The notes under the pieces are model-generated. The model searched no databases. It was given only the letters and a program-made list of their open reading frames with translations, and was not told where the DNA came from. This document shows positions 9,120 through 22,610 of a stretch of DNA of 31,037 bases, in pieces. The DNA is from a virus. Made by a program: the position numbers and the translations under genes. The stretch is from the IMG/VR virus record IMGVR_UViG_3300029787_000216, positions 1 to 31,037 of that record. One strand, given 5' to 3'. The stretch's first letter is position 1, and each line of letters begins with the position of its first letter.

Positions 9120-9327
9120 AAGTGTAGTAGCCCTTCTTATGTTCGTAAACGCAGAGATTAAAGAGGCCCGATTGCAAACTGAAGGTATGGCACAATGTTT
9201 ACGTGGCAAGCGTCATGCAGAGAGACAATTTTCAGAAAACGTAATGTACAAATGCTGGAAAGGTCAAGCAGAACTAGAAGATAATATAGATGGCTCAAAA
9301 TCAATCAAGAAACTCATCATCGAATAA
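9112..9327 (+). CDS. Small conserved protein with hydrophobic N terminus
   Basis: 71 aa. The first 14 residues (MIESVVALLMFVNA) are signal- or anchor-like. The rest is helical with two Cys (C28, C48) and ends NIDGSKSIKKLIIE. GTGAGGAAAT lies upstream. I recall this ending as strongly conserved in marine podovirus proteins of unknown function. The 3' part overlaps the next small gene by 38 nt in another frame. Confidence 0.8.
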   Translation: MIESVVALLMFVNAEIKEARLQTEGMAQCLRGKRHAERQFSENVMYKCWKGQAELEDNIDGSKSIKKLIIE

Positions 9328-13791: not shown

Positions 13792-14079
13792 ATGCCTAGG
13801 AAAAGAAGAAAAGCCGTTGCCTCAACTATAACTCCCGACATACCTTATCCTAAAGTCCGAGTGGAGTGGATCGACTGCGTGAGCGATTCGGGCTGGGCTA
13901 CTGAGAAAGAGTTTGATAGAATGAAATTAGCAAGACCAATTAACGAAGGTTGGCTGTATGAAAAAACAAAAGAACATATTAAATTATTTGCCTCTTACGA
14001 CAAAGACAGTGATGAGATCAGCTTTGGGGATCGGACAATGATTCCTCGTCAGTGGGTAAAGAAGATTCAGAAGATATAA
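13792..14079 (+). CDS. Conserved phage hypothetical protein
   Basis: 95 aa. It begins with a basic stretch (MPRKRRKA). The core YPKVRVEWIDCVSDSGWATEK, then INEGWLYEKTKEHIKLFASYD and MIPRQWVKKIQKI, matches a pattern I recall in many phages (W-x-D, S-x-x-GW, GW, IP) without assigned function. AGAGGTG lies about 13 nt upstream, so initiation is not ideal. Its last 62 nt overlap, tail to tail, with the small terminase gene on the other strand. Confidence 0.82.
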   Translation: MPRKRRKAVASTITPDIPYPKVRVEWIDCVSDSGWATEKEFDRMKLARPINEGWLYEKTKEHIKLFASYDKDSDEISFGDRTMIPRQWVKKIQKI

Positions 14080-14560
14080 CTTCGGATTCACCCTCAACAG
14101 TTTTAGCATTTAACAATGGTGCGTAATCCTCTAATATTTGTTTCATTTTGTTTTCTAGTTCTTGTTCTGATAAGTCCTCAAGCTTTCCTGTTTTTATTAT
14201 TTTCCTGTCTATGTATAGTCCTGCCGCTTTGCCTCTATTTGTCTCTGCGTTTACAGCGGAAGAAAAAGAACCCTTTTTCAAAGCTAATTCTTTAATACGA
14301 TCTAGTTCTGCAAGGTGTCCATCAAACGTCACCATATATTTTTGTATCTTTTCTTCTCTTAATTTACCAATGTAGTCTACAACTAGTGGATGTAATTTAG
14401 GATTGGTCAACTCATAGCCTTCTTGTCTACAACGATTAGGACTAAATCCTGCTTGTTTTGCGGCTTCTGTTTTTGTCACTGCCTTACCGTCTTTGTCACC
14501 AAACACAAGTATTTCAGCAAACTTTCTTTGCATTTCTGTCAGTCTTTTAGGTACGCCCAT
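14018..14560 (-). CDS. terS: Terminase small subunit
   Basis: 180 aa from the ATG at 14560. The N-terminal region LTEMQRKFAEILVFGD, TKTEAAKQAGFSPNRCRQEGYELTNPKLHP is the helix-turn-helix of the Terminase_2 family, which recognises phage DNA at the packaging site. A helical oligomerisation region follows, and then an acidic Ser/Glu-rich tail expected to contact the large subunit. Unusually, it lies on the minus strand, about 6.6 kb from the large subunit. Its promoter overlaps that of the divergent gene and would give an mRNA starting at or within 1 nt of the ATG. Confidence 0.85.
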   Translation of the reverse strand: MGVPKRLTEMQRKFAEILVFGDKDGKAVTKTEAAKQAGFSPNRCRQEGYELTNPKLHPLVVDYIGKLREEKIQKYMVTFDGHLAELDRIKELALKKGSFSSAVNAETNRGKAAGLYIDRKIIKTGKLEDLSEQELENKMKQILEDYAPLLNAKTVEGESEVISSESSLPTDEESLSDPQS

Positions 14561-14562
14561 AT

Positions 14563-14596
14563 TTGACAATTTAAGCTAACTATCCTATATTGTCAA
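14563..14596. promoter_or_regulatory. Overlapping divergent promoters within an inverted repeat
   Basis: TTGACAAT (14563-14570) and ATTGTCAA (14589-14596) are perfect inverted repeats. Plus strand: TTGACA 14563-14568, 17 nt, TATATT 14586-14591, predicted start about 14598, next to ATG 14599. Minus strand: TTGACA 14596-14591, 17 nt, TAAATT 14573-14568, predicted start about 14561, next to ATG 14560. Each -35 overlaps the other promoter's -10, so use of the two should be mutually exclusive. Neither gene has a ribosome site. Confidence 0.6.
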
Positions 14597-15069: not shown

Positions 15070-15438
15070 ATGGGGCCAGAAGCTAAACTATATAAAAAAC
15101 TTAAAAACATATCTAAAACTATTTCTTGGATTCGAATTGAGAATTATAGCTTACTTGGGACTCCTGATTTACTGGGGTATAATGCTAACAGCTACTTTTT
15201 CACAGTAGAGTTAAAGGTGTCAAAAGGCAAGAAGGTTCGCCTGTCCCCTCACCAAATATCATTTCATGTCAAGCATCCCAAGAATACCTTTATCTTGGTT
15301 GAACATAAAGATAAGCATTTGTTATTCGAGGGTCATCAATCGCTTGCGCTTGTCGATTCTGGATTGTCCTCCTCGCTTGAGCCTGTTGCTTCTTCGCTTG
15401 AAGGTTCGGTATCTTTTTTGTCATCGCTTGGCGGTTGA
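15070..15438 (+). CDS. VRR-NUC/Holliday-junction-resolvase-like nuclease
   Basis: 122 aa. E4 in the first helix, LGTPDLLGY (D33), TVELKV (E47, K49) and LSPHQISFH (59-66) form a small PD-(D/E)XK nuclease core of the VRR-NUC type, which cuts structured DNA. The start at 15070 is set by frame; TAGGAG lies about 12 nt upstream. The C-terminal 34 aa (from SLALVDSG on) are Ser/Leu-rich. They contain five CGCTTG copies, all in the same codon phase (TCG CTT or GCG CTT), a possible later extension or repeat-driven tail. Confidence 0.78.
   Translation: MGPEAKLYKKLKNISKTISWIRIENYSLLGTPDLLGYNANSYFFTVELKVSKGKKVRLSPHQISFHVKHPKNTFILVEHKDKHLLFEGHQSLALVDSGLSSSLEPVASSLEGSVSFLSSLGG
15341..15430 (+). repeat. 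Cluster of five CGCTTG hexamers
   Basis: CGCTTG occurs at 15341, 15347, 15374, 15395 and 15425. Distances are 6, 27, 21 and 30 nt, all multiples of three, so each is read in the same phase, mostly as Ser-Leu. It is the first cluster of a hexamer that recurs 18 times on the plus strand between here and 19727. Confidence 0.75.
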
Positions 15439-15488
15439 TTCTTTTTGAGTTCTTTGTAATACTTTGGATGTTTAAACGTATGTGTCAC

Positions 15489-15671
15489 TTAATCTTCCAT
15501 ACAACTTTGTACTTTTTTATATGCAATAACTTTAAAATCATAACCAACTGTATCCCTATCTATTTTTAATTTCAATGTTTCTTGCCAATCAATTAAAGGA
15601 TTGCCCTTACAATCAAAGTCAATACCTATAAATTTAGGTTTCTTAAAACCTATCCATTTTTGTTTTTTCAT
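15489..15671 (-). CDS. Small hypothetical protein, last gene of the minus-strand operon
   Basis: 60 aa. GGAGG lies 7 nt before the ATG, the best ribosome site in this operon. The protein is basic at the start (MKKQKWIGFKKPKF) followed by IGIDFDCKGNPLIDWQ. No known motif. It overlaps the upstream gene as ATGA and ends 50 nt from the convergent nuclease gene. Confidence 0.68.
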   Translation of the reverse strand: MKKQKWIGFKKPKFIGIDFDCKGNPLIDWQETLKLKIDRDTVGYDFKVIAYKKVQSCMED

Positions 15672-15889
15672 TCTTCATCCTCCCATACATCATCAATTGT
15701 AAATCCACAGTCACTATTTTGTGATTGTAGTTCATCCCATTTTTCTACTGGAATTTTTAATGCCTCTTTTTGTGCTTCTGTTTCATCAACAGCTTCAACT
15801 TGTATTTCATACTGCTCGTACACCGTATATCCACCTCTTACGGTATATCTTTTCAATTCTTTACTTTGTGGGTAATCCTCTCCGTTCAT
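15668..15889 (-). CDS. Small acidic hypothetical protein
   Basis: 73 aa. The core YTVRGGYTVYEQYEIQVEA, DETEAQKEALKIP looks like a small alpha/beta fold of the kind seen in short marine bacterial and phage proteins; the C terminus is acidic (DDVWEDEE). GAGGGGGACGA precedes the ATG, and it is coupled by ATGA to both neighbours. Function unknown. Confidence 0.7.
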   Translation of the reverse strand: MNGEDYPQSKELKRYTVRGGYTVYEQYEIQVEAVDETEAQKEALKIPVEKWDELQSQNSDCGFTIDDVWEDEE

Positions 15890-16044
15890 TCGTCCCCCTC
15901 TTCATTCTCACAATATTCAGTTAAAAAATTATCAACACTTGAAGCCGTGTCATCATCAATATCTGTAATTGTTTCGGTATACCAAGTGCCGTCCTCTCGT
16001 TCCATAGTTGTGACTATTGCCCAACCCGTACATTTTTTTTTCAT
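15886..16044 (-). CDS. 52 aa acidic peptide
   Basis: Frame read on the minus strand from ATG 16044: MKKKCTGWAIVTTMERED, GTWYTETITDIDDDTASS, then an acidic end. GAGGGACGA is the ribosome site. Both ends are coupled by ATGA to neighbours, and GAGGG(GG)ACGA-ATG is reused at the next gene. Small and of unknown function. Confidence 0.62.
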   Translation of the reverse strand: MKKKCTGWAIVTTMEREDGTWYTETITDIDDDTASSVDNFLTEYCENEEGDE

Positions 16045-16241
16045 TCGTCCCTCTTAAAGTAATTTATTTTTTCTAGATACTCGTAAGCGTCATCCATTGT
16101 TGATCTAAAATGTTTAGTTCTATATTCGCTTGGTGTGTCTTCATCTGCTTGACAACACATACTAGCTAAATGATCTGCTAGTAATGTATTTTGCTTGGTT
16201 AATTCAGCAAGTCTATTTTTTAATGTTTCGTTTTCTGTCAT
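16041..16241 (-). CDS. Small coiled-coil-like hypothetical protein
   Basis: 66 aa. A leucine-rich helix (ETLKNRLAELTKQNTLLADHLASMCC) is followed by DEDTPSEYRTKHFRSTMDDAYEYLEK. The two adjacent Cys and the following acidic segment are notable. ATGA coupling on both sides. One CGCTTG (16127) falls in its Pro-Ser-Glu codons. Function unknown. Confidence 0.65.
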   Translation of the reverse strand: MTENETLKNRLAELTKQNTLLADHLASMCCQADEDTPSEYRTKHFRSTMDDAYEYLEKINYFKRDE

Positions 16242-16525
16242 AAATTATACTCTTTCTCTAAATGTGGATATGGATATTTTTCTCTCCAAAATCTTCCGTT
16301 GTAAGAAAAATGTCCAATATATTTTTTATCTTTATAAACTTTAGGTGGTATAAAATTTCCACTTCCTAACTCATACTCATCAATATAAGAATTTATTAAG
16401 TCCCTTAATTTTGAAAGTTTTTTATGTTTTATATCTACTAAAGTTTGTGTGCCGTATTTAACTTCATATGGGTTTTGATCAAAATCAATATTACCACAAT
16501 TAGTTAATCTTTTTATTTTATACAT
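16238..16525 (-). CDS. Small hypothetical protein
   Basis: 95 aa. It begins MYKIKRLTNCGNIDFDQNP; the middle has DIKHKKLSKLRDLINSYIDEY and the end GHFSYNGRFWREKYPYPHLE is aromatic-rich. Initiation uses AGAAGGGATAAT-ATG, the same cassette as the gene before it. No recognisable domain. ATGA coupling to the next gene. Confidence 0.66.
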   Translation of the reverse strand: MYKIKRLTNCGNIDFDQNPYEVKYGTQTLVDIKHKKLSKLRDLINSYIDEYELGSGNFIPPKVYKDKKYIGHFSYNGRFWREKYPYPHLEKEYNL

Positions 16526-16551
16526 ATTATCCCTTCTGCTTGCTCGCTTGT
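16523..16551 (-). repeat. Repeated initiation cassette, copy 1
   Basis: On the plus strand the unit is CATATTATCCCTTCTGCT, then TGCT, then CGCTTGT. Read on the minus strand it ends in AGAAGGGATAATATG, the ribosome site and start codon of the 95 aa gene. Copy 2 (16758-16782) is identical apart from the 4-nt insert. Confidence 0.75.
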
Positions 16552-16760
16552 TGATTTATTTGATATTCTAATTCTTCAATTGTATTACTACAAATATAAA
16601 AATAGTTATCATAACCATTTTTTGTTTTTATATAATCATCCCAATTTAAATATTTATTTCTAGGGTATTCATCCTCGCTTGTTCTCATAATGTAAACAAC
16701 TTGTTTTAATCTGGATAATCCAAATATTTTTAAATATTTACTTACAACATTATTTTTCAT
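16527..16760 (-). CDS. Small hypothetical protein, second gene of the minus-strand operon
   Basis: 77 aa from ATG 16760, chosen because it has the AGAAGGGATAAT site shared with the next gene; the frame is open 33 codons further upstream but there it is Arg/Lys-rich low-complexity sequence spanning a hairpin arm and CGCTTG repeats. The protein begins MKNNVVSKYLKIFGLSRLKQV and contains EDEYPRNKYLNWDDYIKT and an NYFYICSNTIEELEYQINQQ end. One base separates it from the next ATG. Function unknown. Confidence 0.66.
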   Translation of the reverse strand: MKNNVVSKYLKIFGLSRLKQVVYIMRTSEDEYPRNKYLNWDDYIKTKNGYDNYFYICSNTIEELEYQINQQASKQKG

Positions 16761-16782
16761 ATTATCCCTTCTGCTCGCTTGT
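16758..16782 (-). repeat. Repeated initiation cassette, copy 2
   Basis: CATATTATCCCTTCTGCT followed by CGCTTGT on the plus strand, identical to copy 1 except for a missing TGCT. It supplies the ribosome site and ATG of the 77 aa gene. It continues into three CGCTTG copies (16776, 16783, 16802) in the untranslated leader. Confidence 0.75.
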
Positions 16783-16807
16783 CGCTTGCGCTTAAGCTTG
16801 TCGCTTG
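16776..16807 (+). repeat. CGCTTG cluster in an operon leader
   Basis: Three CGCTTG hexamers (16776, 16783, 16802) and near matches CGCTTA (16789) and AAGCTTG lie within 32 nt between the GP88 gene and the 77 aa gene. Here the motif is probably untranslated, which argues against a purely codon-driven explanation. Confidence 0.7.
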
Positions 16808-16820
16808 TTAGTTTTAAATA

Positions 16821-16870
16821 TGGCGGTCTAAAGGTTCGCTGTCGTAAAGTACTGACCATCTAAACCGCCA
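16821..16870 (-). terminator. Inverted repeat just downstream of the GP88 gene
   Basis: TGGCGGTCTA (16821-16830) and TAAACCGCCA (16861-16870) pair with one mismatch around a 30-nt loop. The stem begins 15 nt after the GP88 stop codon. No T run follows, so it could limit read-through, stabilise the 3' end of the GP88 message or act as an operator. Confidence 0.4.
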
Positions 16871-16884
16871 CAATTCGCACAAAA

Positions 16885-17595
16885 TTAAACATCTTGCACA
16901 AATCCGTTAAAATCTTTTTTTGCTCTACCTTTAGCAATTAAACCTACTATAACTTTTTTAGGGTCTAAATGTCTTAAATCGTGTTTATCGCCGTTTATAA
17001 CCTTACGGCCTTTATATTTTTTTGGTAGTTTTTTTCTAAAAACAACCGCAATATTTGTATTAGTTTTTAATAATTCGCTTGTATCTTTTTGGTTAATCTC
17101 GCTTTGTGAAAATGTTAATGAATAGTTTTTAGGAAGTTCATTTTTAAATCTATTTCTAATTTTAGTATAGTCTATAAATTGTACGTTAGGATTATTTTCC
17201 ATAAGATTTAAACCGTTTTTTAGCTTGTATCTTTCAAATGGAAGATCGCTTGTGCCGTTCAATCGTACCGTGTATTTTAATTTTTTTCTTTTTGCTCTAT
17301 CGCTTGAGAGTTTTATTTCACGGTCAAGTTGTTCTAAAAATTTTTGTCTATCAGCTAAAAAATAATATTTTTTGTTTAATCTAGATTTTTGAACTATATT
17401 CATTTGCCCTCTTCCGCTTGTGTTTAAACATAAGTCTATACATAAAGGACTTGCATTAACACATATATTTACACCGCCTATATTTGAGGGTGCAAGGTGT
17501 AATATTTCGCTTAAATAATTATAACCGCTTGACTTCTCCATCTTGTAAGTTGAAGATCCTAATAATTTTTTTTGCTCTTTATATTTATATCTCAT
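16885..17595 (-). CDS. GP88-family protein (gene product 88 domain)
   Basis: 236 aa. It matches my memory of the GP88 family found on phages and plasmids: LAPSNIGGVNICVNASPLC, then DLCLNTSGRGQMN, RLNGTSDLPFE (111-121), FIDYTKIRNRF (140-150), SLTFSQSEIN (159-168), a NIAVVF strand and a GDKHDLRHLDP, VIVGLIAKGRAKKDFNGFV end. Cysteines C45-x6-C52-x3-C56 may bind metal or an Fe-S cluster. The family has no proven function that I know of. It is the first gene of a seven-gene minus-strand operon and the only one recognised there. The start codon has only a weak AGAAAG upstream. Confidence 0.85.
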   Translation of the reverse strand: MRYKYKEQKKLLGSSTYKMEKSSGYNYLSEILHLAPSNIGGVNICVNASPLCIDLCLNTSGRGQMNIVQKSRLNKKYYFLADRQKFLEQLDREIKLSSDRAKRKKLKYTVRLNGTSDLPFERYKLKNGLNLMENNPNVQFIDYTKIRNRFKNELPKNYSLTFSQSEINQKDTSELLKTNTNIAVVFRKKLPKKYKGRKVINGDKHDLRHLDPKKVIVGLIAKGRAKKDFNGFVQDV

Positions 17596-17610
17596 ACTTT
17601 CTTTTTTGCT

Positions 17611-17662
17611 AGGGTTGGTTGTAAATGTTCGAACCTTCTAGCGCATATTACAAACCAACCCT
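17611..17662. repeat. Long inverted repeat in the divergent promoter region
   Basis: AGGGTTGGTTGTAA (17611-17624) pairs with TTACAAACCAACCCT (17648-17662) with a single bulged base. Inside is the palindrome GTTCGAAC (17627-17634). It lies upstream of the GP88 operon and would be in its 5' leader or operator. It superficially resembles a tRNA acceptor and T loop but is only about 50 nt. Confidence 0.55.
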
Positions 17663-17714
17663 ATATTGCAAGGACAATAATTAAACAATTAATTGTCAAT
17701 TTTGTATATAAGGG

Positions 17715-17744
17715 CTTGACATTTATTTGTCAAGGGATTATGAA
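17715..17744 (+). promoter_or_regulatory. Promoter with operator-like inverted repeat
   Basis: TTGACA (17716-17721), 17-nt spacer, TATGAA (17739-17744); predicted start at about 17751, which is the ATG of the first plus-strand gene. CTTGACA (17715-17721) is mirrored by TGTCAAG (17728-17734), so a regulator bound to this repeat would cover the -35. A minus-strand TTGACA at 17699-17694 may serve the GP88 operon. Confidence 0.5.
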
Positions 17745-17750
17745 GGATTT

Positions 17751-17921
17751 ATGAAAGTAAGAAGTAAAAAAAACAACCTTTTAAATTATTTTATTTTTGA
17801 TGAAAAGGATTTATCAAAAAATTATGTTAGGAATTGCAAAAAATTTCTTAACTCGCTTTCTAATAATTTAAAAACAAAACAAGGATATAATAATGCAACC
17901 ATTAAGAAAAGATCACGTTGA
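17751..17921 (+). CDS. Small basic hypothetical protein, first gene of the plus-strand operon
   Basis: 56 aa from ATG 17751 (an upstream in-frame TTG at 17727 lies within the promoter). MKVRSKKNNLLNYFIFDEKD, then NYVRNCKKFLNSLSNNLKTKQ and a basic end (IKKRSR). GAAGGA lies close to the ATG, but the predicted transcript start is at the ATG itself. The last 29 nt overlap the next gene. Function unknown. Confidence 0.55.
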   Translation: MKVRSKKNNLLNYFIFDEKDLSKNYVRNCKKFLNSLSNNLKTKQGYNNATIKKRSR

Positions 17922-18477
17922 CTTTTATAAGTCATTTTGTTCAAAAAAAATAGAAGATCAAGAAGACAATATATTAACAGAAATTGAGATTAACGCTCAA
18001 GAACAAGCTGATCGAGATTTTAAAAATTTTCCTAAATTATTAAAACTCGATAAATCAATTTCAGTTTTTAAAAATAAAGTTAAAAAATATAAAGACTTTA
18101 TGAATAAGAAAAAACAATTAGAGGATCAATTCGAATATGAAGCGCAAAAAGTTGCTGATCAATTAAGTGATCAAATAAAAAATATAATGCGCGTTAGAAG
18201 ATCGGACATTAGTTTTGAAGGTATTCAAGTATCAAAACGTGATCCAATAGATTATGTTATGAAATACTTAAAAGATATTTGTTTTGAAGAGTGTAAAAAA
18301 ACAATGAAAAAAAGACATAAAATATTAAATGCTTTAGATCATAAAAGGGAACGTTGTAATCTAATATTACACACGGGATCACACATAACACCTGTTGTTG
18401 AAGCGTTAAAAGATGAACTACAAACGGCAGGGATTAAAATTGATATTCCGAATAATTTATTGTTGCCGTCTAAATAA
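17893..18477 (+). CDS. Helical hypothetical protein, 194 aa
   Basis: AAGGATAT precedes the ATG. The protein is highly charged and helical; residues 55-110 (SISVFKNKVKKYKDFMNKKK and following) suggest a coiled coil. A C-terminal part CNLILHTGSHITPVVEALKDE, IKIDIPNNLLLP may be a small domain. It is the largest gene of the plus-strand part of the island. I do not recognise it; a DNA-binding or replication accessory role would be guesswork. Confidence 0.72.
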   Translation: MQPLRKDHVDFYKSFCSKKIEDQEDNILTEIEINAQEQADRDFKNFPKLLKLDKSISVFKNKVKKYKDFMNKKKQLEDQFEYEAQKVADQLSDQIKNIMRVRRSDISFEGIQVSKRDPIDYVMKYLKDICFEECKKTMKKRHKILNALDHKRERCNLILHTGSHITPVVEALKDELQTAGIKIDIPNNLLLPSK

Positions 18478-18482
18478 ACAAG

Positions 18483-18517
18483 TTGACAATCACGGACAAT
18501 AGTTTATTGTCCGTGAT
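18483..18517 (+). promoter_or_regulatory. Promoter overlapped by a perfect 13-bp inverted repeat
   Basis: TTGACA (18483-18488) and TATTGT (18505-18510, 16-nt spacer) form a possible promoter. ATCACGGACAATA (18489-18501) and TATTGTCCGTGAT (18505-18517) are perfect inverted repeats with a 3-nt centre, covering spacer and -10. It may be a repressor operator, or a hairpin ending the previous gene, although no T run follows. Confidence 0.55.
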
Positions 18518-18550
18518 ATACAGAAATAAACTTATAAAGGACAATTTAAT

Positions 18551-18805
18551 ATGAAAAATGAATTAAACCCATTTGCAAATCAAGATGTTATTTTAAAAAC
18601 TATTAAAGAGACTATGAGACGCGAAAGTGAATTAAGAGGTTATGCAAGAATAAATTTTATTAATGATTTTTTAGGTCAATTGGCGTCAAATAAATTTAAA
18701 TCAAAACAAGACATTGAAAAATGGTTATTAAAACAAAAAGAAAATGCTAAAACTATAATTAAGCAAAATCAAATGTTTAAAGATCCATACGTTGACAAGT
18801 TATGA
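18551..18805 (+). CDS. Small basic helical protein
   Basis: 84 aa with AAAGGACAATTTAAT before the ATG. It starts MKNELNPFANQDVILKTIKE and contains RINFINDFLGQLASNKF and a basic helix DIEKWLLKQKENAKTIIKQN. It lies directly behind the inverted-repeat promoter, so it may be regulated there. No recognisable motif. ATGA coupling to the next gene. Confidence 0.68.
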   Translation: MKNELNPFANQDVILKTIKETMRRESELRGYARINFINDFLGQLASNKFKSKQDIEKWLLKQKENAKTIIKQNQMFKDPYVDKL

Positions 18806-18972
18806 CAGAATTAAAACAAGAGCATTTTGAAGTTATTGACAAGAATAAACAAAAAGCACATGAAGACCGCCAAAACATGAGAGATCAATTAGCGGTGTTT
18901 ATTTTAAATTGCAATGTTTATGAATTATCAAGGTTATATGATGAATATAAAAGACTTAAAAAAAACAAATAA
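18802..18972 (+). CDS. 56 aa charged helical peptide
   Basis: ATG at 18802 overlaps the previous stop. The sequence MTELKQEHFEVIDKNKQKAH, DRQNMRDQLAVFILNCNVYELSR, LYDEYKRLKKNK is a likely helical hairpin. It overlaps the next gene by 35 nt in another frame. Coupling and composition support translation; function unknown. Confidence 0.55.
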   Translation: MTELKQEHFEVIDKNKQKAHEDRQNMRDQLAVFILNCNVYELSRLYDEYKRLKKNK

Positions 18973-19123
18973 AATAGAGATAGTACATTATAAAAAAGAA
19001 ATAACAGAAGACCAAAAAGAAGACAATATGCTGTCTAATTTAGGGTTAAGTCGTGAAGATTTAGACGATAGTGGGGATATGCTTGAAGAGTTAAAAGAAA
19101 TAGTCGGTTTTTATGATGAATAA
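18938..19123 (+). CDS. Small acidic hypothetical protein
   Basis: 61 aa from the double ATG at 18938/18941, preceded by AAGG; an in-frame ATG at 18914 has no ribosome site. It begins MMNIKDLKKTNKIEIVHYKK and continues with an acidic helix-rich part (NLGLSREDLDDSGDMLEELKEI). ATGATGA overlap with the next gene. Function unknown. Confidence 0.6.
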   Translation: MMNIKDLKKTNKIEIVHYKKEITEDQKEDNMLSNLGLSREDLDDSGDMLEELKEIVGFYDE

Positions 19124-19340
19124 AAGACTTTTAACTAAAAAAGACTTTGTTGAAAAAATAATAGAACCGCACAATATAGACAAATTTAAAAAAATGAAAG
19201 TTTGTGAGTTGAGAGAATTATATCAAATGACACATATAATTGATAACAAAGTTGTTAATATGCAAGGTTATTGTTTCAGTTGTTTAAAACCTTTAAGACC
19301 TGATTATACTATTTATGAGAACTATTGCGCGGATTGTTAG
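19113..19340 (+). CDS. Small protein with C-terminal Cys pairs
   Basis: 75 aa. A helical N-terminal part (LLTKKDFVEKIIEPHNIDKF) is followed by GYCFSCLKPL and YENYCADC; the two CxxC pairs probably form a zinc site. The start overlaps the previous gene. The protein ends on its second CxxC motif. It may be a small DNA- or partner-binding protein. Confidence 0.68.
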   Translation: MMNKRLLTKKDFVEKIIEPHNIDKFKKMKVCELRELYQMTHIIDNKVVNMQGYCFSCLKPLRPDYTIYENYCADC

Positions 19341-19342
19341 TT

Positions 19343-19546
19343 ATGAGAAAAATTAGTAAAAAATATATTGAAAAATTAACACTTCAAGAGATATGCGCTT
19401 TTAGAGATAATAGAGATATGCAAGTTGTAAGTAGTTATTGGTTATGTAATCAAATAGGTTATATTAATGCTTTATTATTTCTACTTAATAGACATCAATT
19501 AATAAGTTTATTTGATGAAGTACATAATAAAATTAGAGATAAATAA
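19343..19546 (+). CDS. Small hypothetical protein, last gene of the plus-strand operon
   Basis: 67 aa from ATG 19343 (an in-frame TTG at 19325 is within the upstream gene). MRKISKKYIEKLTLQEICAF, then SSYWLCNQIGYINALLFLLN and HQLISLFDEVHNKIR. Helical throughout, with a moderately hydrophobic middle. No motif recognised. Followed by 327 nt without a gene. Confidence 0.62.
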   Translation: MRKISKKYIEKLTLQEICAFRDNRDMQVVSSYWLCNQIGYINALLFLLNRHQLISLFDEVHNKIRDK

Positions 19547-19873
19547 CCTTAAAAATTAATAGAGTTATTTATTAAATAAGTATTAATTAATATATATTTT
19601 CAATAGATTTTTTCTTTTTATCTTGCCGTTGCTTATAGGTTATTTACTTGCAAAAAGCCGTGATCCGTTGACCGCGCAAAACTTTTTGAGATCCGCTTGT
19701 CCATGATCCCTGAACCATGACCGCTTGTGCGTTATTGCGTGAACTTTTTAGCTTGTGCGTTGTAAAATAAAATAAAAATAAAAAATTTCTAAAACGATAA
19801 AAAAAGTCTAGATCTATTTTTTACTCGTTCAAGTTGTATGAGCCGTGAACCAATGGCCACGGCTCAAGGATCT
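19547..19873. other. Non-coding spacer between convergent island operons
   Basis: No convincing gene. There is an AT-only stretch (about 19550-19620), then a GC-richer block (19625-19765), an A-rich tract (19765-19800) and a hairpin (19840-19865). The GC-richer block has GATCCGTTGACCG, GATCCGCTTGTCC and GACCGCTTGTGC, near-repeats that share CGCTTG, plus two copies of ACTTTTT. The layout could be an origin, a packaging-type site or a small RNA locus. Confidence 0.5.
19840..19865. terminator. Hairpin beyond the convergent operons, likely bidirectional terminator
   Basis: GAGCCGTG (19840-19847) pairs with CACGGCTC (19858-19865) around a 10-nt loop. It lies 8 nt beyond the stop of the minus-strand gene ending at 19874. 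On the plus strand it is followed by AAGGATCTTTAATAATT. The T runs are short, so strength is uncertain. Confidence 0.55.
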
Positions 19874-20460: not shown

Positions 20461-20502
20461 ATTTATTGTCCTTTTTTTATTTTTATTTTATCCTTTATTA
20501 TG

Positions 20503-20535
20503 CTTGACACTATATTTAATTTTGATAATGTCAAG
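20503..20535 (+). promoter_or_regulatory. Promoter-like inverted repeat CTTGACA/TGTCAAG
   Basis: CTTGACA (20503-20509) and TGTCAAG (20529-20535) are perfect 7-bp arms. On the plus strand, TTGACA is followed by GATAAT at 20524 (14-nt spacer) or TAATGT at 20526 (16 nt). It lies between a minus-strand and a plus-strand operon, so the minus arm may also act as a promoter. Similar arms occur at 14563 and 17715. Confidence 0.45.
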
Positions 20536-20557
20536 TTAGAAAGTGAGAATAAAAAAC

Positions 20558-20956: not shown

Positions 20957-21143
20957 TTGTGGCGCGTGGTCAATTTTTCGTGGCGCGTGATTATCTTTTT
21001 TAATTGTCTATGGATCCTAAACCGCGCCCAAAAATTAAGAGTACGAAGTACCTTATACCCTCTTTACGTAGATAGGGATCCTAATGTATGTATATATATG
21101 CTTGATTTATATTGTCAGACCCTGTAAAAAACGTTTTGGTACC
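20957..21143. other. Repeat-bearing spacer upstream of terL
   Basis: GTGGCGCGTG occurs twice (20959-20968 and 20980-20989), 21 nt apart, i.e. on the same helical face. GGATCCTAA occurs at 21011-21019 and again at about 21077-21085. Between them are CCGCGCCC and TACGAAGTA. No gene is convincing. Iterated sites next to the large terminase gene could form a packaging or regulatory site. Confidence 0.45.
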
Positions 21144-22610
21144 ATGGACTTGAATCAGGTAGATATAAATAAATTACCTGCAGATGTGCGAAAGACCTTC
21201 AAACAACTTCAAGTGTTACATGCTGAAAAAAAGATACAGAATAAAGCTAAAGAAGACTTCCTATCTTTTGTCAAATGTGTGTGGCCAGATTTTGTAGAGG
21301 GGTCCCACCACAGGCACATTGCAGATAAGTTTAATAAATTGGCGACGGGTGAAATAAATCGTCTGATAATCAATATGCCTCCTAGGCATACCAAATCAGA
21401 ATTTGCATCCTATCTTTTGCCAGCATGGATGGTGGGCCGTGATCCAAAGCTCAAAATTATTCAAGCAACGCACACGGCAGAGTTAGCGATTCGTTTTGGT
21501 CGTAAGGCAAAGAATCTTATCGATTCAGAAAATTATAGAAAAATTTTTAAGACAGCACTTCAAGAAGATTCTAAAGCAGCAGGACGTTGGGAAACATCTG
21601 CTGGCGGTGAATACTTTGCAGCTGGTGTTGGCGGTGCAATCACGGGTCGTGGTGCAGATCTTCTGATCATTGACGATCCACACTCGGAACAAGATGCAAT
21701 GTCCAAAGTATCTTTAGAGCGAGCATACGAATGGTATACATCAGGACCACGACAACGTTTACAACCTGGTGGTAAAATTATTTTAGTAATGACAAGATGG
21801 AGCACGAAAGATTTAACAGGAGCGTTAGTTGCAAATCAAAAAGAAGCAAAGTCAGATCAATGGCACGTGGTCGAGTTTCCAGCGATCATGGATCACGAAC
21901 CAGTGTGGCCTGAGTATTGGAAGTTAGATGAATTAGAAAAAGTCAAAGCAGCTTTGCCTGTAACAAAATGGAATGCACAATGGATGCAACAACCAACATC
22001 TGAAGAAGGTGCAATCTTAAAACGTGAGTGGTGGCAAGAGTACGAAGGAGATGATATTCCTCAGATCTACCACGTGATACAAAGTTATGATACAGCGTTC
22101 TTGAAAAAAGAAACAGCAGACTACAGTGCGATAACGACATGGGGAGTTTGGTATCCTAGTGAAGACAGTGGGGCAAATTTAATATTGTTAGATGCAATCA
22201 AAGGTCGGTATGAGTTTCCAGAGCTTAGACGTGTAGCGTTAGAACAATATCGGTACTGGAATCCCGAAACAGTGATCATTGAAGCAAAAGCATCTGGTCT
22301 ACCTTTGACATACGAACTTAGAAAGATGGATATCCCAGTCATGAACTTTACGCCATCTAAAGGAAATGATAAGCATGCCCGTGTAAATGCGGTTGCACCT
22401 TTGTTTGAATCTGGTATGATATGGGCTCCTAAACAGAAGTTTGCTGAAGAGGTGATTGAAGAGTGTGCATCCTTTCCGTATGGGGATCATGATGACTTGG
22501 TTGACTCCACCACGCAAGCAATTATGAGATTTAGACAAGGTGGTTTGATTGAGCATCCAGAAGATTATGTGGATGAGATCAAAGAACAGAAACAACGAGT
22601 GTATTATTAA
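21144..22610 (+). CDS. terL: Terminase large subunit
   Basis: 488 aa from ATG 21144. An in-frame ATG at 21084 with AGGGA upstream would add 20 hydrophobic residues atypical for the family, so the later start is preferred. ATPase: MPPRHTKS (79-85, Walker A variant), LLIIDDPHS (D177-D178, Walker B), LVMTRWSTKDL. Nuclease: SYDTAF (D316), VIIEAKASG (E380), GDHDDLVDS (D450, D451). It packages DNA into the prohead and cuts it. It starts the plus-strand head operon. GC content is higher than in the island upstream. Confidence 0.93.
   Translation: MDLNQVDINKLPADVRKTFKQLQVLHAEKKIQNKAKEDFLSFVKCVWPDFVEGSHHRHIADKFNKLATGEINRLIINMPPRHTKSEFASYLLPAWMVGRDPKLKIIQATHTAELAIRFGRKAKNLIDSENYRKIFKTALQEDSKAAGRWETSAGGEYFAAGVGGAITGRGADLLIIDDPHSEQDAMSKVSLERAYEWYTSGPRQRLQPGGKIILVMTRWSTKDLTGALVANQKEAKSDQWHVVEFPAIMDHEPVWPEYWKLDELEKVKAALPVTKWNAQWMQQPTSEEGAILKREWWQEYEGDDIPQIYHVIQSYDTAFLKKETADYSAITTWGVWYPSEDSGANLILLDAIKGRYEFPELRRVALEQYRYWNPETVIIEAKASGLPLTYELRKMDIPVMNFTPSKGNDKHARVNAVAPLFESGMIWAPKQKFAEEVIEECASFPYGDHDDLVDSTTQAIMRFRQGGLIEHPEDYVDEIKEQKQRVYY

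Follow-up and report, generated by a model that had tools for sequence, protein, structure and literature searches.

The hexamer island between the terminase genes

The stretch of DNA analysed here (IMG/VR record IMGVR_UViG_3300029787_000216, a 31-kb virus record of 31,037 nucleotides, hereafter the window) is a fragment of a HTVC023P/HTVC027P-type pelagiphage, and its terminase large subunit (TerL) is 68.5% identical to that of Pelagibacter phage HTVC027P. The genes for the terminase small subunit (TerS) and TerL bound an island with a leftward operon, including a gene of the GP88 family (PF17338), and a convergent small nuclease-like gene, whose 3' tail is overwritten by repeats (Table 1). 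The repeated word is the hexamer CGCTTG, which reads CAAGCG on the leftward strand. The one-sided hexamer is no artefact. It forms part of a code of short words at even spacing that a large family of SAR11 viruses has conserved, and, to judge from the sequences, the words are most likely protein-binding sites controlling the genes of one strand.

The earlier note on the window had listed 18 plus-strand copies of CGCTTG between 15341 and 19727, and every coordinate proved exact. As it also said, CAAGCG is absent from the plus strand of this interval and occurs three times outside it, at 9207, 11627 and 12108; CGCTTG itself is confined to the island, with no copy elsewhere in the window. The expectation of less than one copy agrees with dinucleotide-preserving shuffles of the interval (mean 0.36, maximum 4, n = 500). 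CGCTTG is the highest-scoring hexamer of the 15–20 kb region (z 26), with TCGCTTG (13/18) and CCGCTTG (4/18) as extended forms, and its enrichment survives look-elsewhere correction, because the observed z of 28.4 lies far above the top hexamer z of each shuffle (mean 5.5, maximum 9.7). The copies are spread over plus genes, minus genes and non-coding DNA, as had been noticed by eye: five are in the nuclease tail, where four read TCG CTT Gxx, five in GP88, one in the open reading frame (ORF) 16041–16241 and two in the ORF that directly follows GP88 (16545 and 16676). Three more are in an intergenic leader (16776–16807) and would be coding only with an ORF start at 16859, the likely start being near 16763, and the last two are in non-coding DNA (19694 and 19722), with a third CAAGC 28 bp past this pair (GCTTG at 19751–19755).

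Codon preference, proposed earlier as a part cause, is indeed visible: serine is encoded by AGC in 7/16 cases in GP88 and in 10/195 in core genes, and the hexamer often reads xCA AGC GNN. However, this bias is a consequence of the sites and not their cause, since codon permutation fails to reproduce them and sites are also made by amino-acid change. In the GP88 genes of 30 relatives, 87 sites stand against 22.6 ± 4.1 after synonymous codon permutation (maximum 35, n = 500), and there are none in the reversed direction. Some of the GP88 sites are synonymous choices (TSG, TSD, SSE) and some are amino-acid changes (VKQ to TSE), at positions that vary among relatives. The earlier note would have read similar counts in shuffles, or homologous islands without the hexamer, as a sign of composition; the counts are 22.6 against 87 for codon permutation and 0.36 against 18 for dinucleotide shuffles, which rule out a composition or codon effect, and homologous islands carry the hexamer. 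Sequence comparison thus establishes selection of the sites at the nucleic-acid level.

A search with GP88 gave 39 loci, 33 of them at about 80% GP88 identity or above. Nearly all of these 33 are rich in CAAGCG on the GP88 strand with few or none reversed, so that the hexamer is found near GP88 genes elsewhere, a check proposed in the earlier note; the sparse ones include L023 with three copies and short fragments such as L009 (802 bases) and L022, with two each. Relatives with GP88 at 51–58% identity are not rich in CAAGCG. At the junction after GP88, arrays with 6/7-nt steps stand directly before the ribosome-binding site in L003, L012, L015, L024 and L030. In these five loci and in the window (16518–16544 and 16753–16779) the same leader, ...CAAGCGAGCAGAAGGGATAATATG, precedes unrelated accessory genes, and this common leader suggests cassette exchange behind a fixed leader. 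In L018 (4873–5411) the TerS match is split in two, as if frameshifted or mis-sequenced.

Table 1. Features of the motif island in the window
Feature	Position	Strand	Evidence or remark
Terminase small subunit (TerS)	14018..14569	-	phrog_51 2.5e-08; left edge of island
Small nuclease-like gene, resolvase/VRR-Nuc-like by PHROG	15070..15438	+	phrog_2165 1.5e-12, phrog_5702 7e-4
Terminal cluster: five CAAGCG (plus strand: CGCTTG), 3' tail of nuclease gene, end of leftward operon	15341..15430	-	CAAGC heptad arrays there in relatives
Lone copies within leftward cassette genes (16127, 16545, 16676)	16127..16681	-	motif positions
Leader array: three CAAGCG plus CAAGC/AAGCG variants, directly 5' of the ribosome-binding site that serves the gene following GP88	16776..16807	-	longer arrays in relatives
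GP88 family gene (PF17338), five internal copies (17076, 17247, 17301, 17415, 17526)	16885..17595	-	Pfam E 9.6e-40
Likely GP88 promoter: TTGACA 17728–17733, TATATA 17705–17710, 17-nt spacer	17705..17733	-	sequence prediction only
Non-coding block, three CAAGC at 28-bp steps (GCTTG 19695, 19723, 19751)	19694..19755	-	conserved in the clade, surroundings variable
Terminase large subunit (TerL)	21084..22610	+	phrog_38 2.5e-105; right edge of island

A heptad register kept across the phage family

Further contigs came from an unanchored scan for three CGCTTG close together; they encode the TerS, nuclease and exonuclease of the family and lack the GP88 type of the window, and, like HTVC027P itself, they carry runs of CAAGCNNCAAGCNN. 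In the element, CAAGC recurs at 7-nt intervals, two free bases separating successive copies, and CAAGCGA on the leftward strand of the window is the form of its clade. In HTVC027P the runs adjoin gp33, which is a member of the GP88 family (Pfam 2.5e-28). A scan for (CAAGCNN)4 gave at least 109 new viral loci, such collection-scan frequencies being lower bounds, and among the matches listed 107/109 encode family proteins, in the case of L181 by a weak match (29% TerL). The family contigs were chosen by protein matches and are mostly short fragments, and homologous loci do not give independent counts. To avoid the bias of a motif-based search, a motif-independent sample of 80 loci was drawn by TerS alignment alone, 55 of them with the 3' end of the nuclease gene in view; 51 of these 55 have the element, with 589 heptad pairs in sense and 0 in antisense orientation, and none of the 55 has a heptad pair downstream of TerS. 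Moreover, the motif lies on the strand of the GP88-type gene in 152/152 loci.

Successive CAAGC copies are spaced by a 7-nt step 1449 times, every one of the 16 possible dinucleotides occurs as spacer, and a unit with a neighbour on either side was again CAAGC 867 times. With free spacer bases and a fixed core, this is selection of the 5-mer at a fixed register and not slippage. The sites, their strand, their register and their positions are thus established by comparison of sequences. Slippage can expand tandem copies; however, the free spacer bases exclude it in its simple form, the strand bias is strict across non-homologous genes, and shuffles and codon permutation do not reproduce the counts, so that an artefact of composition, codon usage or slippage is hardly credible. 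The scan for three CGCTTG also gave contigs with steps in multiples of nine (e.g. L106 and L126), which look like coding repeats and were set aside.

The foreign origin considered in the earlier note finds no support, the element being native to the whole phage family. An uptake, Chi-like or primase signal, which it also considered, should appear genome-wide or on both strands, whereas the rest of the window has 0 CGCTTG and 3 CAAGCG, and the arrays are absent downstream of TerS and follow the strand of one operon. Rfam gave no match, and we found no earlier description of CAAGC repeats in the open-access literature; one may exist elsewhere. The CAAGCNN pattern also occurs in Pseudomonas and other bacterial genomes, with no Pelagibacter among the matches listed. 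In several intergenic regions among the bacterial loci L281–L339 (Pseudomonas and relatives), GCTTG runs, the reverse complement, come after the CAAGCNN runs, as in long hairpins. Despite the same nominal unit, the bacterial heptads differ from the phage element in that their units are often near-identical, several are matched by a run in reverse complement, like the two arms of a hairpin, and TTGACA follows within 40 nt in 0/125 among the matches listed; the bacterial pattern looks unrelated.

Predicted promoters, putative operators and the swapping of motifs

Most relatives have an array at the leftward GP88-type promoter and a second one across the 3' end of the convergently transcribed nuclease gene, promoters being sequence predictions throughout. 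An exact end at TTGACA (CAAGC directly followed by TTGACA) was found in 79/605 distinct arrays, followed after 17 nt by the TA of a -10 box, and the reverse control, TGTCAA, in 2; co-location with promoters in the relatives is thus evident from the sequences. Since these arrays end at the -35 box, RNA made from the promoter would not include the abutting copies. Furthermore, the array goes with the promoter and not with GP88, because L563 retains array and promoter before an unrelated 89-residue ORF that stands in place of GP88. The promoters of gp33 and gp34 in HTVC027P both bear arrays, and in RNA-seq of this phage the two genes form their own temporal cluster at 6–9 h (PMC12753301), which together support a special timing of the leftward genes behind array promoters.

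We give about an even chance to the CAAGC sites, with their usual 7-bp register, being asymmetric operators through which HTVC023P/HTVC027P-type pelagiphages control their leftward accessory operon; the hexamer would be the version of these sites in the window clade. A putative DNA-binding regulator would read the CAAGC sites side by side; bound beside the -35 box of the leftward promoter, it would set initiation by activation or repression, and on the oriented sites inside or at the end of the operon it may act on elongation or keep transcripts from running into the nuclease gene that faces the operon. Among the options of the earlier note, a protein-binding signal appears the best supported, given the fixed 7-nt register with all 16 spacer dinucleotides and the arrays that abut the -35 box, and we infer protein binding, an effect on transcription and a role for the in-gene copies. 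Several points weigh against operators: about half of the gp33 upstream regions (39/83) lack exact abutment, the terminal array has no following promoter, no binding protein is known for CAAGC arrays, the temporal class of gp33 and gp34 is a correlation, and the arrays of the window clade are not at the -35 box but within the operon and beside ribosome-binding sites.

In the window clade one CAAGC (in the window, GCTTG at 17714–17718) lies in the spacer of the predicted GP88 promoter, whose layout is repeated in L003, L005, L012, L014 and L018, three are at 28-bp steps near 19.7 kb and the remainder are in the operon; the sites in this clade have moved into the operon. Because these arrays are not beside the -35 box, an RNA-level role keeps an appreciable share of the probability: a TRAP-like RNA-binding protein or an antitermination factor would read CAAGC in the leftward transcripts and control translation or termination. 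Nearly all copies of the window clade, including the arrays beside ribosome-binding sites, could lie in leftward transcripts, and a 5-mer with a 2-nt spacer fits single-stranded recognition. We nevertheless regard it as rather doubtful, since sister-clade arrays reach precisely up to the -35 box and so lie before the start of the transcript made there, and since Rfam gave no match. Palindromes also lie over likely promoters of the window, at 17714–17733, 18478–18520 and 20500–20540 (CTTGACA...TGTCAAG; ATCACGGACAATAG...TATTGTCCGTGAT); they resemble the usual operators of a dimeric protein, here of a second regulator.

Sister lineages have other motifs at the kept positions. Contigs with the 023Pt type of TerS have no sense-strand heptad pair and carry a strand-biased GCGAGC instead, and HTVC023P-type loci have TTGGTCC (74 vs 1 by strand) and GGCAGC (110 vs 16) upstream of GP88. 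GP88-type proteins 87% identical to each other have CAAGC as their neighbour in L166 but GCGAGC in L161 and L399, so the reader of the motif is probably encoded elsewhere; GP88 itself is disfavoured as the reader by these pairs and by L563, whose arrays have no GP88 in view. The AlphaFold model of GP88 (pLDDT 83) has alternating helices and strands, and the family has two invariant cysteines; the model gave no significant fold among known structures (best E 0.16) and the GP88 profile no match to solved structures. We take GP88 to be an uncharacterised, probably enzymatic family. It is possible, and we propose it tentatively, that a regulator–operator code (CAAGC heptads; GCGAGC; TTGGTCC/GGCAGC) has been swapped wholesale between sister lineages with GP88 up to 87% identical, and that oriented in-gene sites have invaded the coding sequence of the window clade; lytic ocean phages would then possess a control system that evolves fast and resembles heteroimmunity, read by a new kind of DNA-binding protein.

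TerS was another candidate reader, since motif type at first tracked TerS type, and the same comparison, partly biased by motif-based sampling, speaks for a packaging (pac) signal read by TerS, as do the position between TerS and TerL and the single orientation. Yet L516, L520, L522, L523 and L527, one of them a 53-kb record, have a TerS about 75% identical to that of the window and neither GP88 nor heptad pairs, so that the heptads are not conserved with TerS; in L131 TerS is inverted, and the arrays are not inverted with it and follow the gp33 gene. These loci weaken TerS as the reader, and a pac signal, for which exact coupling to a -35 box would be unexpected, is unlikely.

Several hundred non-coding bases with repeated large hairpins of CTGATCCCTGGTCCAT ... 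ATGGACCTGGGATCAG were seen in L563 (1500–2000) and, upstream of the gp34 promoter, in L159 (HTVC027P), immediately before array and promoter in both; TGGTCC belongs both to this hairpin sequence and to the strand-biased motif of HTVC023P-type loci. The hairpin region may be a structured RNA or a part of the same control region. Short tandem direct repeats next to structured non-coding DNA recall replication origin iterons or a partition centromere, and omega heptads also serve as parS; this is slightly less probable again than packaging, because the arrays are absent from near relatives including the 53-kb record, the copies in genes of the window clade are dispersed, and no ParA- or RHH-type protein was found among the neighbouring HTVC027P proteins scanned with Pfam and PHROGs. 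Recombination boundaries for the swapping of accessory cassettes are less probable still: the same array and leader precede different genes, including that of L563, and GP88-type genes move between backbones, while the -35 coupling, the free spacer bases and the in-gene copies would stay unexplained and a gene is flanked after exchange by the resident motif type, not that of the donor.

Significance and comparison with known systems

SAR11 is a dominant bacterium of the ocean. The HTVC023P-type viruses are described as widespread phages of SAR11 in a study that reports 80 complete podovirus genomes (PMC9599517), and in a transcriptome study of HTVC027P the early genes were all found to be of unknown function (PMC12753301). 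A conserved and countable cis-code at the promoter of the most distinctively timed genes would give a direct handle on gene timing in these phages, the motif swaps between lineages are natural experiments by which its reader protein could be traced, and the 7-base register with free spacers is an easily recognised marker of the family (107/109 among the matches listed).

Two systems come close. The stoperators of cluster A mycobacteriophages (L5, TipsytheTRex) are asymmetric repressor sites in promoters and along genes, oriented with transcription, and reversal of a site abolishes repression (PMC9283540). The CAAGC sites are likewise many, short and asymmetric, with an orientation tied to transcription (the GP88-gene strand in 152/152 loci), and occur at the promoter and also within and after genes; they differ in their 5-bp core, often in a 7-bp register, in one island of phages described as lytic and with no known repressor, whereas stoperators are 13-bp, genome-wide sites of the immunity repressor of temperate phages. 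No repressor-like family was seen among the neighbouring proteins scanned, which are part of the phage proteins. The omega (ParB) repressor of plasmid pSM19035 binds runs of adjoining 7-bp repeats, non-palindromic and built on a short core, that overlap promoters (PMC9499535). Contiguous 7-bp direct repeats over promoters are shared by the sister clade and not by the window's own; the omega core is WATCACW, with units in both orientations, whereas the phage units, CAAGCNN, all point the same way, and neither Pfam nor PHROGs recognised an omega/RHH protein among the proteins scanned. Because neither core is shared and no homologous protein was found, we file the element under neither system. 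The pac site of phage P1 consists of short hexamer repeats in two clusters around the cleavage site; the CAAGC arrays resemble it as clustered short phage repeats and differ in being coupled to promoters and absent from close relatives. TRAP-binding repeats have a short fixed core in tandem with free spacers of 2–3 nt and are an RNA target in leaders; the CAAGC arrays share with them the tandem core and the free spacer, and differ by also ending at -35 boxes.

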